This document shows, piece by piece, positions 42,147 through 61,273 of a DNA stretch of 64,000 nt (positions are counted from its first letter, which is position 1; each line of letters starts with the position of its first letter). This stretch comes from Phycisphaeraceae bacterium D3-23 (lineage in GTDB: Bacteria; Planctomycetota; Phycisphaerae; Phycisphaerales; Phycisphaeraceae), in the NCBI GenBank assembly GCA_039555135.1, contig CP114179.1, positions 1,612,001 to 1,676,000 of the forward strand. Direction: 5' to 3'. The notes below the pieces were generated by a model. That model saw only the letters and a list, made by a program, of their open reading frames with translations. It did not search any database and was not told the origin of the DNA. Position numbers and translations under genes: made by a program.

Positions 42147-43784
42147 TCAGCCCTTCTCACCCATCACACGGGTGACTTCTTTGATGTCGGAAATGCCTTC
42201 GACGACCTTGGCCAGGGCGGCTTCCTGGAGGTAGATCATGCGGTGCTTGCGGAGGTGGGCGCGGAGCTTTTCGCCCTCGCCCGAGGCGATGAAGCCGGCG
42301 GCCTGCCGGTCGATGAGCATGATTTCGAATACGCCGACCCGGCCGCGGTAGCACAGGGTGTGGCAGTCGGGGCAGGGTGACGGCCGATCTTTCACGACGA
42401 TCTGCCCCGAGGCGCGGTAGAGCTGGCCGACCTGGCTCGCGGGGACGTTGAGCTTCTTGAGTGCGGCCTCGTCGGGCTGGTAGGGCGCCCGGCAGGTGTG
42501 GCACAGGCGACGCACCAGGCGTTGGCTGACCAGTGCCGCGACAGACTCGGCGGCGAGCCGCTTATCCCCGACGATCTTGATCCAGGTCTTGAGCCCGGAG
42601 ATCGTGTCCTTCGCGGGCAGCGGCAGGTAAAAGCGCGTGTCCTCGGCGGTCTTGGCGATGAGCTGGGCCATATCCGTGCTGACGACTTTCGAGACCATCA
42701 TCACATCGGGGTCTGAACGCAGCAGCGACGCGAACTGGGCCTGGACCTGCTCCTGTCCGCCCGCGGCATGGGTGTTGTGGTTGACGCCCTCGATCTCGAA
42801 CGCGATCTCTTCCTCAAAGGTCATCACCGACGAGGTGTAGGGGTCGTGCTCCTGCAGGAAGGCGTACATGCTGGTGGTCGTGCCCTTGCGGGGCGGGCTG
42901 CAGAACAGGATGGCTTTGGAGTTTTCGGAGACGAGTTCTTTGACGGTCTCGCGCTGGGCGGGGGTGAGCCCGAGGTGGTCGATGGGGATGTCGAGTCGGC
43001 CCTGCGGGTCGATCTCGATGGTGAGCGTGAGCGCCCGCGTGGAGCCGGCGGTCGTGAGCTCGAGGGTGTGCATCCCGCCGTCGAGCTCGACCCACATCTT
43101 GCCCTTCTGCTTCCGGCGTCGGTCGGTGGTGTCCAGGCCCGCGTGCTCTTTGAGGTACTCGATGAGCTGGATGCACAGCTGGGGCTCGGGGGCCTCCTGG
43201 GCGTAGCGGACGCCGTCGACGCGTGAGATGAACTTGGCCTTCTCGGCGTCGACCGCGATGTCGAGCTGGTCGGCGCCGCGGGGGATGGCGAAGACAAGCA
43301 TGTTCTCGAAGAGCTCGAACGCGGGGGTGCGCGGGTCGTTGCCGTGGGGCACGTCCAGGAGCTTTTCGGACTTGTCCATCAGCTTGATCTGGGCGCGGTC
43401 CTGCGCGGCCTTGCCGGCACGGTCCTCCATCTTCTGGTTGAACTTGGTGATCGTCTTGCCGTCCCACTTCTTCTCTTCGGGGACCTGCTTGTTGCGGTAG
43501 GCGACGTAGGCGAGCATCTCGCCGGCGATGATGAGCAGCGCGATGGGCAGCCCGATCCAGAAGATCGGGATGACGAGCATGAGCCCGAAGGCGATGATGC
43601 CGGCGAGGATATGGAGCAGCGACCACTGGTGGCGCTTGAGGTAGAAGTAGCCGGCGTCTTTGTCGAGCCGGCCCGCGAGCCAGGCCCAGGGCCCGAGGAC
43701 CATCAAGACCAGGATGGGCTTGAGGATGCTCATCAGGAAGACGGGTTCGGCTTTGAATGCGATGAGCAGCTGGGTCATGGGCAT
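42147..43784 (-). CDS. GspE/PilB-like protein with degenerate ATPase motifs and membrane anchor
   Basis: 545 residues. Two membrane helices at the N-terminus (residues ~17-38 and ~57-93), unlike soluble GspE. The fold follows GspE: C-terminal Cys pairs 428/431 (LCHTCRAPYQPDEAALKKL) and 471/474 (CPDCHTLCYRGRVGVFEIM) form the zinc site. But the P-loop region (CSPPRKGTTTSMYAFL, 295-310) lacks the GxxxxGK(S/T) lysine position, the Asp-box reads FEEEIAFEIEGVNHN, and the Walker B site reads RSDPDVMMVSKVVS instead of GEIRD. The His box is missing. It looks like an inactive relative, likely a structural partner to PilT. Confidence 0.82.
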   Translation of the reverse strand: MPMTQLLIAFKAEPVFLMSILKPILVLMVLGPWAWLAGRLDKDAGYFYLKRHQWSLLHILAGIIAFGLMLVIPIFWIGLPIALLIIAGEMLAYVAYRNKQVPEEKKWDGKTITKFNQKMEDRAGKAAQDRAQIKLMDKSEKLLDVPHGNDPRTPAFELFENMLVFAIPRGADQLDIAVDAEKAKFISRVDGVRYAQEAPEPQLCIQLIEYLKEHAGLDTTDRRRKQKGKMWVELDGGMHTLELTTAGSTRALTLTIEIDPQGRLDIPIDHLGLTPAQRETVKELVSENSKAILFCSPPRKGTTTSMYAFLQEHDPYTSSVMTFEEEIAFEIEGVNHNTHAAGGQEQVQAQFASLLRSDPDVMMVSKVVSTDMAQLIAKTAEDTRFYLPLPAKDTISGLKTWIKIVGDKRLAAESVAALVSQRLVRRLCHTCRAPYQPDEAALKKLNVPASQVGQLYRASGQIVVKDRPSPCPDCHTLCYRGRVGVFEIMLIDRQAAGFIASGEGEKLRAHLRKHRMIYLQEAALAKVVEGISDIKEVTRVMGEKG

Positions 43785-43865
43785 GTCCGCGGGGCGGTGA
43801 GGGGTTGGTGCAGGGCCGGCCGGATGTCGCCGGGCCGGTCGGTACGGGGCATGGGGCCGGGTCGG

Positions 43866-45017
43866 CTACTTGGTCTGGATACCACGCAGGCGCATCTTGA
43901 TTTCTTCGGGGCTGGGCGACGCGGCCTGCGCAACGCGCGGGTGGACGTAGTTCTTCTCGACCAGCTCCACCAGCGAGTCGACATACGACTGCATCCCGGC
44001 CTCGCGGTTGCTGGCGATGACTTTCTCGAGCTCGCCCTCCCGGCCTTCGAGGATCAGGTTCCGCGTCGGCGGGCTCTGCAGCAGGATCTCACACGCCGGC
44101 ACACGCGGCGCCTCGATCAGCGTCGGCAGCAGCTTCTGGTACATGAAGCACTGCATCTGATACGCCAGCAGCGAACGCACGTTGTCACGCTCGTCCGCGG
44201 GGAACAGGTCGTAGATTCGGCCAAACGCCTGCGAACACGAGGACGCGTGGATCGTCCCGAACACGAGGTGGCCCGTCTCGGCGGCCTGGAGCGCGGCCTC
44301 GAACGTCTCTTTGTCGCGCATCTCGCCGATCAGTACGACGTCCGGGTTCTCACGCACCATCGCACGCAGCGCGGTTGGGAAGTCGGGCACGTCGATGCCG
44401 ATCTCCCGCTGGTTGATCATCGCCATCGTGTCCGAATCATCAAACAGGTACTCGATCGGGTCTTCGATGGTGAGGATGTGGGCCCGGCGACGCTCGGCGA
44501 TGTACTGGAGCATCGACGCGATCGTCGTCGATTTGCCCGAGCCGGTGATGCCGCACAGCAGGATCAGGCCCTGGTGTGTCTCTTCGCAGACTTTCGCCAG
44601 CGACTTGGGCAGGTAGAGACTCTCGAACGGCAGGATCTCGTTGGACACCCGCCGGGCGGCGATCGCGCATCGGCCACGGGTCAGGAAGATGTTGACGCGG
44701 AATCGGTGCATATCGCCGTCGACATCGAAGTCGACCCCGATGTCCAGCCCGCCCCGCCGGGCGAACTCTTCCTTCTGGGCCTCGGTGATGCCCTCGAAAA
44801 TCCACTTGTTGAAGTCGTCGATGGAGGGGGGCGGGGTGTCGAGTTTCTTGAGCTCGCCCCGCAGCCGGAGCTTGGGCACCTCGCCGCCGCGCATGATGAG
44901 GTCGGAAGACTCGAACCGCACGGCCGCCTTGAAGTACTTGGACAGCGGGGTGTCGGCGAGGGTCTTGTGGTGCGCCTGGTCGATATCGAACGTCTGGACG
45001 GGCTGGCTGTCACTCAT
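43866..45017 (-). CDS. pilT: PilT/GspE-family secretion or retraction ATPase
   Basis: 383 residues. Soluble hexameric ATPase powering type IV pilus retraction. Walker A GITGSGKST (156-164), Asp box TIEDPIEYLF, Walker B NPDVVLIGEMRD (224-235), His box ETGHLVFGTIHASS. All catalytic elements are intact, in contrast to the neighbouring GspE-like protein. An N-terminal PAS-like domain covers ~1-110. It is the first gene of a three-gene minus-strand set with that protein and the CvpA-like one. Which machine it drives (pilus or other) is not shown by context. Confidence 0.92.
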   Translation of the reverse strand: MSDSQPVQTFDIDQAHHKTLADTPLSKYFKAAVRFESSDLIMRGGEVPKLRLRGELKKLDTPPPSIDDFNKWIFEGITEAQKEEFARRGGLDIGVDFDVDGDMHRFRVNIFLTRGRCAIAARRVSNEILPFESLYLPKSLAKVCEETHQGLILLCGITGSGKSTTIASMLQYIAERRRAHILTIEDPIEYLFDDSDTMAMINQREIGIDVPDFPTALRAMVRENPDVVLIGEMRDKETFEAALQAAETGHLVFGTIHASSCSQAFGRIYDLFPADERDNVRSLLAYQMQCFMYQKLLPTLIEAPRVPACEILLQSPPTRNLILEGREGELEKVIASNREAGMQSYVDSLVELVEKNYVHPRVAQAASPSPEEIKMRLRGIQTK

Positions 45018-57697: not shown

Positions 57698-58381
57698 TTA
57701 GTCGTACAGCGCTTCGAGGTCGGTGTACTGGTAGAAGTCGCGGGGCTCTTCGCCCAGCGTGACGAGGACGACGAGGTCCTGGAAGTCGGCCGCAGCGGAA
57801 TCGACATCGCTCGTGCCGAGCTCAAACAGGTAGATCGCCTGGTTCTGGTCCATGGTCATCTTGCCGGTGTCGTAGTCGATGTATGGAGCGACGAACGCTT
57901 CAGCATCGTCTTGGTCGCCGAAGCCCGCGAGGCTGGGCGCGTCGTCGCCGTCGCGCAGGACGATCACTTGGACACCTTCGTCGTGCGAATTGACTTCCAT
58001 CATGACATCGCCGTTGGGCAGGAACGACCGCCCCGTGAAGGTAATCTCCAAGCCGTCCTCGGCCAGGAACTGTTCGCGGACGATGTGGTGGCGTGTCGGG
58101 CCGTGCGTGTTGATATCGCCGTCGAGTGACGCGGCATCCCCCCAGGGATGGAGGATAATGTCGCCCCCGATCCGGACCTCGGCCGTCACCGGGACATCGT
58201 TGCCCCCCGCGCCGTTCGTAAGTGCGGCACCGAGCACGGAGACCATCACCGCGAAGTCTTCGGTCGGGATGACCTTGCCGTCTTCGATGACGAAATCGAT
58301 GGGCTCGTCTTCGTCGGCGTGTACGGCGAACGGTGAGGCCAGCAGGCCGGTGGCGAGTGCGGCGGTCAGAAACTTGTGCAT
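57698..58381 (-). CDS. Secreted protein with C-terminal LYD tail (paralogue 1)
   Basis: 227 residues. Signal peptide MHKFLTAALATGLLASPFAV, then FAVMVSVLGAALTNGAGGND, and repeated acid/beta segments to ADFQDLVVLVTLGEEPRDFY. It ends EALYD. It is 50-60% like the next gene by eye over most of its length. No enzyme motif is seen. AAAGGGGAA precedes the ATG. It has its own terminator. Confidence 0.7.
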   Translation of the reverse strand: MHKFLTAALATGLLASPFAVHADEDEPIDFVIEDGKVIPTEDFAVMVSVLGAALTNGAGGNDVPVTAEVRIGGDIILHPWGDAASLDGDINTHGPTRHHIVREQFLAEDGLEITFTGRSFLPNGDVMMEVNSHDEGVQVIVLRDGDDAPSLAGFGDQDDAEAFVAPYIDYDTGKMTMDQNQAIYLFELGTSDVDSAAADFQDLVVLVTLGEEPRDFYQYTDLEALYD

Positions 58382-58593
58382 CGTGTTCCCCTTTCGTGGT
58401 GTGTTTCCGGGGTTTCGACCCTTGCCGAAGCCGGTTGATAGAAAAATACCCCACGCCGAGGTCGAGGCGCAACCGCCAACAAAAAACACAGGAAGTTCGC
58501 GGAGGTGCCACGGCACAGACCGACCGACGCCCCGGGTTTGCACAGGCCGTACAACCCGACCGAGGCCGGCAACGGTGCGCCGGGGCTGCGCAT

Positions 58594-58624
58594 AAAAAAA
58601 AGCCCCGCCGGTGAGGGCGGGGCC
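58594..58624 (-). terminator. Terminator after the second LYD-tail gene
   Basis: GCCCCGCC/GGCGGGGC stem, then a run of eight T on the minus strand. Confidence 0.8.
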
Positions 58625-58657
58625 TTGAAAGCCGTATCGAGGTCGTCGGATCACGGC

Positions 58658-59374
58658 TTAGTCGTAGAGGGACTGCGGCTCGGTGTCCGCGTAGAAATCT
58701 TCGGGCGCTTCGCCCAGCGTCACGAGGACGACAAGGTCCTGGAAGTCGGCCGCGCTGGAGGAGACGTTGGTCGTCCCGATCTCGAAGAGGTAGATGGCCT
58801 GGTTCTCGTCCATGGTCATCTTGCCGGTGTCGTAGTCGATATACGCGCCGACAAACTCCTCGGCGTCCGACTGGTTCTCGAAGCCGTCGATGTCCGGCGC
58901 GTCGTCGCCGTCACGCAGGACCTTGACCTGCCAGCCCTCGTCGTGCGAGTTGGCCGAGAGGTGGGTGCGCCAGTGGCTGTCGTAGACGCCGCTGTACCAG
59001 CTCTTTTTCTTGACCCACGACCGGCCGCTGACGGTGATGTTGATGCCGTCGTCGGCGTCGAACACCTCGTCGACGATGTAGTGCCGCACAGCGCCGTGGT
59101 CGTTGACGTCGCCGTTGGTCGGGCTGGCGTAGGGGCCCCAAGGTTCGAGCGTGTCGTCGCCCAGGTGGACCATCGCTGTGACGGGGATGTCGTCCCCGCT
59201 CGACGTGATCGCGGCACCGAGCACCGACACCATCACGGCGAAGTCTTCGCTCGGGACGACCCGGCCGTCCACGATCTCGAACTCGATCTGCCCGTCGCCC
59301 TCCTGGGCCTGAGCAGGGGTCGTGGCCGCAAAGAGCCCGAGGGCGCAAGAGGCGGCAAGGAGTTTGGAAGTCAT
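58658..59374 (-). CDS. Secreted protein with C-terminal LYD tail (paralogue 2)
   Basis: 238 residues. Signal peptide MTSKLLAASCALGLFAATTP. Shares with paralogue 1 the segments PSEDFAVMVSVLGAAI, NSHDEG, VLRDGDDAP, YIDYDTGKMTMDENQAIYLF and AADFQDLVVLVTLGE. It adds a WVKKKSWYSGVYDSHWRTHL loop. Ends QSLYD. GAAAGGAAAAG precedes the ATG. Its tandem position with paralogue 1 indicates duplication. Function unknown. Confidence 0.7.
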   Translation of the reverse strand: MTSKLLAASCALGLFAATTPAQAQEGDGQIEFEIVDGRVVPSEDFAVMVSVLGAAITSSGDDIPVTAMVHLGDDTLEPWGPYASPTNGDVNDHGAVRHYIVDEVFDADDGINITVSGRSWVKKKSWYSGVYDSHWRTHLSANSHDEGWQVKVLRDGDDAPDIDGFENQSDAEEFVGAYIDYDTGKMTMDENQAIYLFEIGTTNVSSSAADFQDLVVLVTLGEAPEDFYADTEPQSLYD

Positions 59375-59477
59375 CACTACTTTTCCTTTCAGGGTTTGAC
59401 TTGCCTCGCCGAACGGCTTGGCCGACACATCACGGCTCAAGCCAACTCAACTGTCACAATCAAAACCGCAATTGCCA

Positions 59478-59521
59478 AACAAAAAACGCCCCGCCGCGGA
59501 GTGTTTGCTCGCGGCGGGGCG
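59478..59521 (-). terminator. Terminator after the fibro-slime gene
   Basis: 12-base stem CGCCCCGCCGCG/CGCGGCGGGGCG, then six T on the minus strand. Confidence 0.85.
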
Positions 59522-59560
59522 CCGTATTCGTTACAGGCCGGTGGCCTTGGGGCGTTGGGT

Positions 59561-60358
59561 TTAGTCGTACAGCGGGCTCGTCGTCGTCGGCGGGATCTCT
59601 TCGAGCTGCAAAGTCGTCTCGATGCGGAAGTTCGACTCGGTCGTGTGCCGCTCGGCGAAGAACAGAACAAGTTCGTAGGTGCCGCCGGCTTCGAGGCCGA
59701 GGTCCTCGGCTTCGTCATCCAGGTTGACGCTGCGCTGGGCCTGGCCGTGTACGCCACCGATATCTACGGCGAGCTGGCCGTTGATGAAGACCCAGACATC
59801 GTCGTCGCCCGTGAACTCAAACATCAGGTCGTAGTCGCGTTTGGCCGGGTCGGAGTAGAAGAACGACATCTGCAACTCATACGTGAAGTAGAAGTTGTGC
59901 GTGCCGGTACTCACCGACTGGCTGTCGCCAAAGCCGCGGCCGTCGGCGGGGAAGAAGTATCGCATGTCCCCGCTCATCTGCTTCTCACGGGCGTAGTAGA
60001 ACACGTCCGGCTTGTCGGGGTGCGGCTCGAGCGTGATCGCGAACGGGAAGCTGACGTTGACGCCGGGCTCGTCGCGGAACCACTGGTTGAACGACTCGGG
60101 CCCGGTGATCATCCCACGGGTGTAGTCGGTTCCGGTGTTGAGCACGGGTCGCCCGTCGTCGCCCAGCGTGTCCAGCACCAGGCCGGTGCGCACGCCGAAG
60201 CTCTTGCTCGGGTTCTGCATGTCGGGGTGGCTCTGGAGGAAGTCGCGCACGACGCCCGTCAGGACGATGGACTCGTCTTCGCCGTCGTCGGCCGACGCGC
60301 CCAAGGGGAAGGCCAACAGCCCGCCCGCCAATGCCATCAAAAGTTTGTTACGTTTCAT
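59561..60358 (-). CDS. Secreted fibro-slime domain protein with C-terminal LYD tail
   Basis: 265 residues. Signal peptide MKRNKLLMALAGGLLAFPLG. The domain has VLTGVVRDFLQSHPDMQNPS, then YTRGMITGPESFNQWF, YYAREKQMSGDMRYFFPADG, and DDDVWVFINGQLAVDIGGVH with LVLFFAERHTTESNFRIETT. These are hallmarks of the fibro-slime domain, seen in secreted adhesive or fibrous proteins. Ends SPLYD, the same tail as its two neighbours although the domain is unrelated. AGGAGA lies seven bases upstream of the ATG. Confidence 0.88.
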   Translation of the reverse strand: MKRNKLLMALAGGLLAFPLGASADDGEDESIVLTGVVRDFLQSHPDMQNPSKSFGVRTGLVLDTLGDDGRPVLNTGTDYTRGMITGPESFNQWFRDEPGVNVSFPFAITLEPHPDKPDVFYYAREKQMSGDMRYFFPADGRGFGDSQSVSTGTHNFYFTYELQMSFFYSDPAKRDYDLMFEFTGDDDVWVFINGQLAVDIGGVHGQAQRSVNLDDEAEDLGLEAGGTYELVLFFAERHTTESNFRIETTLQLEEIPPTTTSPLYD

Positions 60359-60637: not shown

Positions 60638-61273
60638 TCAGTCCAGCTTCCGCGGCATCGTCGACGCCACCACACGCACCGGCGGCGTGCTGTCGCCCTC
60701 GATCGCGAGCGAGGTGTCCGCGTCCGGCATCACCGTAAAGTCGACGCTCCCGCGCTCCAGCACCCAGACACCGTCTTCATCAAGCCGACGCGTCAGGACG
60801 AACTGGCAATCCGTCACCCCGCCCAGGAGCGGCTCGGTCGTCGTCACGCTCCCGCCGTACGGCGTCACGCTGACATAAATCATCTCCTCGGCCGAGCGGT
60901 ACTCCAGACGGATCAGGTCGCCCTTCGGGTTCACCAGGTCGAGGTAGTGCGAGTTGATCGTCTTGATCCCGCTGAGCGTGACCGGCGGCGTCGTGGTCGT
61001 ATCCGGCGCAAGCGGGCCGTGCGCCGTCGAGGTGCGCACGAGCGTCAGCGTGCGGTGCACGATCAGCCGGGTCGTCGTCTGCGTGCTCGCGCTCTCGGCG
61101 GCGGCGGCGTAGGCCTGGAAGCTGGCGTCCAGCGCGACCATCACCGCGGTGAGCAGCATCGCCGTGATCGTCAGCGAGATCAGCAGCTCGACGAGCGACA
61201 GCCCGGCGGTGCGCCGCCGTCGGCGATTCACGCGTCGTGTCGGGCTCGGGTTCGTCGGCGTGTCCTGCTGCAT
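60638..61273 (-). CDS. Prepilin-like protein (GspJ/PulJ type)
   Basis: 211 residues. N-terminal leader with many Arg, then a prepilin cleavage/methylation site AGLSLVELLISLTITAMLLT. Glu5 of the mature chain is present. The rest has PulJ-like helices and beta strands (TTTRLIVHRTLTLVRTSTAH). It is downstream of the PilX-like gene on the same strand, in a pseudopilin set extending past the window edge. The alternative start upstream is less likely. Confidence 0.8.
   Translation of the reverse strand: MQQDTPTNPSPTRRVNRRRRRTAGLSLVELLISLTITAMLLTAVMVALDASFQAYAAAAESASTQTTTRLIVHRTLTLVRTSTAHGPLAPDTTTTPPVTLSGIKTINSHYLDLVNPKGDLIRLEYRSAEEMIYVSVTPYGGSVTTTEPLLGGVTDCQFVLTRRLDEDGVWVLERGSVDFTVMPDADTSLAIEGDSTPPVRVVASTMPRKLD

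Follow-up and report, generated by a model that had tools for sequence, protein, structure and literature searches.

In a 64,000-nucleotide stretch of Phycisphaeraceae bacterium D3-23 (contig CP114179.1, positions 1,612,001 to 1,676,000; hereafter the window), three neighbouring minus-strand genes for exported-looking proteins of two unlike families end in the codons for Leu-Tyr-Asp (LYD) and a stop. The conserved core of this tail is [YF]D-COOH, an aromatic residue and a terminal aspartate, and it is conserved at the protein level. An end of this kind on unlike proteins, with a shared operon slot and shared presence and absence tying them to the minor pilins of a type IV pilus, fits a role of the kind described for PilY1 and TcpF. 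The tail is probably a plug that attaches exported proteins to that pilus or serves their export by it, and we lean towards the view that it docks putative adhesins onto the minor-pilin tip, a contact proposed here by analogy.

The shared tail in the home genome

A preliminary description of the window had reported signal peptides and LYD ends on two paralogues and an unrelated fibro-slime protein, and these observations are borne out. The proteins close in ...DLEALYD (family-1 protein A), ...EPQSLYD (family-1 protein B) and ...TTSPLYD (the fibro-slime protein), and all three begin with what a crude home-made rule takes for a signal peptide. Proteins A and B are paralogues with 58% identity over 238 aligned positions and match no Pfam or NCBIfam family at E values up to 1 (A was searched as the longer frame 57698-58534). 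The third protein scores 99.9 bits against the fibro-slime model TIGR02148 (NCBIfam cut-off 45) and 34.7 bits against PA14 (PF07691, cut-off 24); its nearest named relatives are records of Phycisphaeraceae, other Phycisphaerales or Planctomycetota, mostly metagenome-assembled genomes plus two complete planctomycete chromosomes. No kinship between family 1 and the fibro-slime protein was detectable with hhalign, which gave a probability of 8%, and this over the signal-peptide end. The identical end codons pointed out earlier extend over 14 bases, which are just the codons of x-L-Y-D-stop, and since the DNA beyond them is unlike, the match lies at the protein level. The earlier reading as a sorting or secretion signal stands insofar as a real, signal-like end is shared by unlike exported proteins; its core motif, however, is [YF]D and not LYD.

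An excess of LYD ends among exported proteins was looked for and found. In a sample of 40 stretches of 20 kb (0.80 Mb of the 4.62-Mb single-contig genome), spread by hand and not at random, the signal-peptide rule was positive in 249 of 649 genes, of which 4 end in LYD against 0 of the 400 others. Two stretches were placed deliberately, over a fourth LYD gene and beside the window, and as the window and the fourth gene were thus sampled on purpose, a census of the whole genome is the fairer test. Scanning for [LF]YD codons followed by TRR returned 12 sites, seven with a true stop and five with TGG, against 20 for the backwards pattern; the raw DNA pattern not being enriched, the excess sits in gene ends only. 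Four of the seven LYD-stop sites end credible genes, three in the window and one elsewhere, and the remaining three terminate reading frames 6, 76 and 3 codons long, which we did not take for genes. From the end-residue frequencies of the 649 sampled genes, and with 4000 genes assumed, 0.38 LYD ends would be expected where 4 were found, and all four credible proteins look exported by the same crude rule. The fourth, of 305 residues (G000:C1:402889-403806, or L071:7889-8806; G and L numbers are our handles for genomes and loci), belongs to a third family, profile comparison detecting no kinship with either of the other two (hhalign probabilities 1% and 0.6%). A pilM gene is situated 2.8 kb away from its gene, the two being separated by an ABC-F-like gene.

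Conservation of the tail in relatives

Fibro-slime proteins are present in 45 of 61 genomes, and 42 of their 48 closed frames end in [YF]D. This count, home included, is the sum of 29/29, 12/18 and 1/1 (L234), all frames read without using the tail; G011, G021 and G030 are not counted, as only loci found by the tail pattern show their tails. The exceptions are three proteins of 860-911 residues in G038 and three PEP-CTERM-like-ended proteins in G013 and G052, and each of these genomes also holds a [YF]D-ended fibro-slime protein. Family 1 occurs in 14 of the 61 genomes including the home genome (relatives of protein B in 13 of the other 60), with [YF]D at the end of 17 of 19 distinct closed frames, the two of the home genome among them; one other ends in MD and one in neither. 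Among genes outside these tailed families (hereafter clients), [YF]D ends are rare: 2/645 in the home sample, 1/194 and 1/436, the gene-calling errors L218 and L236 being left out of the count and L295 and largely L288 also being misread. Fibro-slime ends went unread in G034, G028 and the second match of G029, and the clients of G005 and G014 are cut by contig ends. Three tandem family-1 fusion genes in G008 (L226, 8018-13795) end in FD, YD and MD. Counted in the background is an exported-looking 464-residue protein of G012 (L222:10501-11895) without a Pfam match, which ends in DSYD, adjoins a family-1 gene and may be a further client.

Beyond this set, 80 fibro-slime loci of named genomes gave [YF]D ends in 37 of 39 planctomycete-labelled frames against 2 of 40 with other labels, one frame being open. 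Of the two planctomycete-labelled frames without such an end, one is about 3100 residues long and the other ends in LAD. Because L137 (Vicinamibacteraceae isolate PLA1) and L164 ("bacterium") share their ends with the order relatives L049 and L045, their labels are doubtful. Many fibro-slime homologues of Myxococcota end soon after the last strand, and PEP-CTERM-like ends were recognised by eye in those of cyanobacteria (one of two), Alphaproteobacteria, Massilia, Desulfobulbaceae and Verrucomicrobia. In L267 (G013) and L284 (G052), PEP-CTERM-like fibro-slime proteins stand beside [YF]D-tailed ones, so that one domain bears two C-terminal signals.

Within 54 distinct fibro-slime tails, Asp is last in 53 and Tyr or Phe last but one in 52; Leu or Ala occupies position -3 in 41 and Ala or Pro position -4 in 42, and further back the preferences loosen, Pro at position -8 in 36 being one of them. 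The Asp is also invariant in an alignment of 16 sequences picked independently of the tail, whereas the alignment used for structure prediction was drawn from [YF]D-ending frames and its conserved last residue is no evidence. Since the Tyr, Phe and Asp codons vary among tails, the constraint acts on the protein, and in view of these varied codons and the differing flanks we rejected both a motif at the DNA level and a recent conversion of the 3' gene ends. Nor is a widely used sorting signal, with clients by the dozen, supported by a tail-pattern scan of 151 genomes, which gave 43 sites against 19 for the backwards pattern. The 30 loci opened comprised 11 fibro-slime genes, the fourth protein of the home genome, one pilin-like gene and one RuvB-like gene (by eye, taken as chance), the other 16 being mostly short frames that were not taken for genes. 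A literature search, with most subscription journals outside its reach, returned no description of this tail.

The tailed families and the pilus operon

Upstream of the window's fibro-slime gene come a GspJ-like pilin gene and, before it, a large gene of GspK/PilX type; past the window edge there are another pilin-like gene, truncated in L085 and without a Pfam match, a pilC/gspF gene and a PilT-family ATPase gene. The pilC/gspF product scores 208.5 bits against T2SSF, and 337.8 and 298.1 bits against the GspF and PilC models, both below cut-off; the ATPase belongs to the PilT/PilU family (TIGR01420 442.7 bits, cut-off 319.1). The pilus parts recognised in the home genome are thus the PilT- and PilC/GspF-type genes at this slot and PilM elsewhere. 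In G044 (L292) the order reads pilM, pilN, pilO, unknown, pilB-like, pilT, pilC, pilin-like, GspK-like, pilin-like, with Pfam matches to PF11104, PF05137, PF04350, PF00437 twice (one with MshEN) and PF00482, and with the two small pilin-like genes recognised by their N-terminal pattern and matching no Pfam family; this gene set identifies a type IV pilus assembly operon.

Where a fibro-slime or family-1 gene fills the slot behind pilT, pilC and the GspI/K/J-like genes, it is tailed wherever the end is visible: the window's own fibro-slime gene, one ending in LYD in G009, and fusion genes with the family-1 domain in G027 (ending SFD and SYD), G036 (GYD) and G028 (SYD). The slot of G023 holds a family-1-type gene cut by a contig end. 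Among 40 named loci, K- and J-like genes accompany the tailed fibro-slime gene in 7, six of which also have a pilC-like gene. Of these 40 loci, 20 (e.g., L111, L116, L119) have a gene that by eye resembles murA close to the fibro-slime gene, and so have L232 and L233; in 11 motif-recognised loci it stands directly upstream of the fibro-slime gene on the opposite strand. Clients lie within 8 kb of the operon in 19 of 31 genomes of group f1 and 4 of 4 of f6, against 0 of 16 in f2-f5; in G044, too, the client gene is located away from the operon. In G053 (L225:18079-19206) the tail is missing from a protein whose family-1 domain is preceded by an N terminus of GspK type (NF037980, scoring 30.6 bits against a cut-off of 130), a single case that fits what would be expected if the tail replaces a built-in pilin anchor.

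The GspK-like gene served as a marker of the operon and was matched in 51 of the 61 genomes and in 119 of a wider 151. All 51 positive genomes of the first set hold a fibro-slime or family-1 gene, against none of the 10 negative ones, or one if a giant frame is counted; nine of the ten have neither family, and G034 has a fibro-slime match only in a 7756-residue frame whose end was unread. By hand tally 49 of the 51 show a tailed end, and in the other two, G005 and G014, the clients are cut by contig ends. The wider test, made for fibro-slime alone with a profile of seven GspK-like proteins and TIGR02148, added 90 genomes, in which tails were read only at the tail-pattern loci and in G081. Fibro-slime matches occurred there in 65 of 68 genomes with the GspK-like gene and 1 of 22 without when frames above 4000 residues were excluded (Fisher p 2.5e-16), and in 65 of 68 against 3 of 22 when two giant frames were counted (p 1.5e-13). 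By genus the figures are 78/79 and 1/18, the absences of the GspK-like gene covering 18 whole genera in four families. The co-occurrence persists where the loci are unlinked, as in f2-f5.

Structure of the tailed proteins

An AlphaFold2 model of the fibro-slime protein, built on 37 sequences, has a mean predicted local distance difference test (pLDDT) of 81.4, with residues 259-265 below 50; as modelled, the tail is not part of the fibro-slime fold, and in the comparison of 54 tails it comes after a looser linker. Foldseek matches it best to PA14 sugar-binding domains from an RTX adhesin (lowest E 2.0e-4), with low TM-scores for the top match (0.29 by query, 0.41 by target), and a sequence search of the PDB with the fibro-slime profile gave one weak match, to a trafficking-complex subunit. 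The family-1 model, built on 3 sequences, is weak (mean pLDDT 63.7) and has no Foldseek match below E 0.001, for which reasons we claim no fold for it.

Features of the window

The coordinates are collected in Table 1. The GspJ/PilW-like and GspK/PilX-like genes owe their names to the N termini of their products and to their place, for the latter within the operon; the 745-residue protein reached the cut-off of no Pfam or NCBIfam family, and Pfam gave only a sub-threshold EF-hand for it. The earlier claim that each tailed gene has its own terminator is upheld after family-1 B and, by a short hairpin, after the fibro-slime gene, but the scan found none after family-1 A, where a weaker hairpin is seen by eye; the scan returned 5 such sites in the region against 2.8 expected. 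Two further T2SSE-type ATPase genes (PF00437) lie at 42147-45017, about 13 kb from the tailed genes.

Table 1. Tailed genes, adjoining minor-pilin genes and hairpins, in window coordinates
Feature	Position	Strand	Remarks
Family-1 exported protein A, 227 aa	57698..58381	-	ATG start; ends EALYD-stop
Tail codons of family-1 A	L-Y-D 57709-57701; stop 57700-57698	-	
Family-1 exported protein B, 238 aa	58658..59374	-	ATG start; ends QSLYD-stop; L-Y-D codons 58669-58661
Terminator-like hairpin after family-1 B	58599..58626	-	Terminator scan
Fibro-slime/PA14 exported protein, 265 aa	59561..60358	-	Ends SPLYD-stop; L-Y-D codons 59572-59564
Terminator-like hairpin after fibro-slime gene	59489..59501	-	Short in scan; longer stem by eye, about 59530-59481
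GspJ/PilW-like minor pilin	60638..61273	-	Directly upstream of fibro-slime gene; PF07963 N_methyl 25.2 bits, cut-off 21.2
Large GspK/PilX-like minor pilin, 745 aa	61456..63693 (longer frame to 63789)	-	Pilus-operon marker

Discussion

It is tempting to see in the tail, ...[ST]-[AP]-[LA]-[YF]-D-COOH, a short motif for docking. Once the protein has left by the Sec route, its globular part would fold, as a PA14 lectin-like domain in the fibro-slime protein, and the tail would stay loose; through its aromatic residue and the terminal aspartate or carboxylate it might then bind the GspI/GspK/GspJ-like minor-pilin tip of a PilT-type pilus, and the bound protein would be carried outward and shown as a tip adhesin, or released. 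A shared docking tail of this sort could allow unlike adhesins to use one operon slot.

Known systems offer partial parallels. According to PMC11046646 and PMC13190605, a short C-terminal stretch of PilY1 is modelled to join PilX by strand addition, and PilY1 with its FimU-PilV-PilW-PilX tip complex combines an exported non-pilin protein encoded behind minor pilins, a variable adhesive part and a C-terminal contact stretch, this last as modelled. The fibro-slime gene of the window similarly has GspK- and GspJ-like genes as neighbours, and genes of the pilC and pilT types lie further upstream. The clients differ in that neither the three window proteins (at E up to 1) nor the fourth protein matches the PF05567 beta-propeller of PilY1, and in that their tail ends in [YF]D and is common to unlike families; a PF05567 search gave no match in any of the 61 genomes, but it gave none in a control genome either, so that its absence is not established. 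In TcpF and CofJ, whose globular folds differ, a minor pilin holds a short, flexible stretch at the terminus in which an aromatic residue is needed (PMC9565799). The clients resemble them in carrying a terminal motif with an aromatic (in 52 of 54 tails) on soluble exported proteins of unlike fold, whereas the TcpF and CofJ segments are N-terminal and without obvious mutual sequence similarity, and the tail described here is a common C-terminal [YF]D-COOH. The PEP-CTERM/exosortase system shares with ours a C-terminal signal on exported proteins, at the same place on the same fibro-slime domain where PEP-CTERM was recognised by eye; the [YF]D tails differ, again by eye, in having no membrane helix and no basic or arginine-rich end. 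The fibro-slime proteins of Fibrobacteres share the TIGR02148 domain, and the portion of the source at hand mentions no C-terminal tail for them.

The co-occurrence and slot evidence that argues for docking would also serve if the tail were a secretion signal, by which the pilus machine, or a type II secretion system sharing its parts, exports the proteins across the outer membrane and releases them, as type IVb pili do with TcpF and CofJ. Such a signal is described in PMC9565799, the tails that were read carry no C-terminal membrane helix, and the GspF and PilC models score alike on the inner-membrane protein of the operon. A PilT/PilU-family ATPase, however, suits a dynamic pilus and a PA14 lectin-like fold suits display, and we hold secretion to be an unlikely alternative. 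The preliminary description had proposed to look for a genomically linked processing enzyme; the partner found is instead the type IV pilus or minor-pilin operon, and this favours a docking or export role at the pilus over a reaction of the sortase kind. An anchoring or processing enzyme parallel to that of PEP-CTERM proteins could nevertheless be argued from the PEP-CTERM-like ends at the same place in fibro-slime homologues of other phyla and in the paralogues of G013 and G052, from the fourth LYD protein, which weakly resembles the exosortase-dependent surface protein XDP2 (NF041929 46.1 bits, below the cut-off of 75), and from an exosortase gene (G000:C1:1687842-1688636, in L085:11746-13845) about 16 kb from the home fibro-slime gene, with others 12 to 19 kb from it in G002, G009, G013 (one copy) and G047. 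Exosortase was rejected as the linked enzyme: all 61 genomes have it, whether or not they hold tailed families, it lies far off in others, and so it does not track the tail. The tails read have, moreover, no membrane helix, basic end or invariant upstream box, and the enzyme reading appears decidedly improbable.

Recognition of a free carboxylate is typical of PDZ domains, and an aromatic-acidic dipeptide at a C terminus resembles some of their ligands; a periplasmic PDZ protein, be it protease or chaperone, might therefore read the tail as a tag for quality control or delivery. Nothing in this predicts that the tail and a minor-pilin operon should occur together, and we give the idea very little credence. 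Scarcely credible to us is that the tail has no signal role and is a mere structural end of the fold, or inherited by descent. Ends are homologous within each family, as this would require, but the tail is common to families without detectable kinship, homologues labelled as other than planctomycetes mostly stop shortly behind the final strand or finish in other domains or in PEP-CTERM-like segments, and in the model the tail is of low confidence and behind a looser linker.

Several observations weigh against docking of the tail at the pilus tip. The co-occurrence speaks more strongly for a link between the pilus and the protein families than for one between the pilus and the two residues, most tail clients are of one family, and the fourth LYD protein has no relative in the 60 genomes. 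The Fisher p values overstate the association because the genomes are related. A GspK-like gene occurs without a fibro-slime match, by a search for fibro-slime only, in G106 and G134, where no tailed gene was recognised beside it (the gene calls of G134 being poor), and again without fibro-slime in G061 (71% complete); conversely, G081 (88% complete, 650 contigs) has a tailed fibro-slime protein and no GspK-like match. The slot lacks a tailed gene in G008, G012, G016 and G018, whose clients are located elsewhere, 12 of the 31 f1 genomes are unlinked, and in the named loci linkage to the murA-like gene is commoner than linkage to the pilus genes (20/40 against 7/40).

With these points set against it, docking at the minor-pilin tip remains the reading that we favour. 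A bolder proposal, which we offer tentatively and would back less readily, is that in Phycisphaerae a free C-terminal [YF]-D acts throughout the order as a label addressed to the tip of the type IV pilus, by which any exported domain acquiring it turns into a tip adhesin, and that the same domains may switch between pilus (YD) and exosortase (PEP-CTERM) by exchanging their last residues. Known cases of choosing non-pilin proteins for pilus tips are few, PilY1, TcpF and CofJ among them. If the proposal is true, tip cargo would be predictable from sequence across a whole order of little-studied environmental bacteria, a two-residue tag common to unlike families, and retained or lost along with the minor pilins, would provide a small handle for studying tip loading, and one fold would be routed by two C-terminal signals within one genome.

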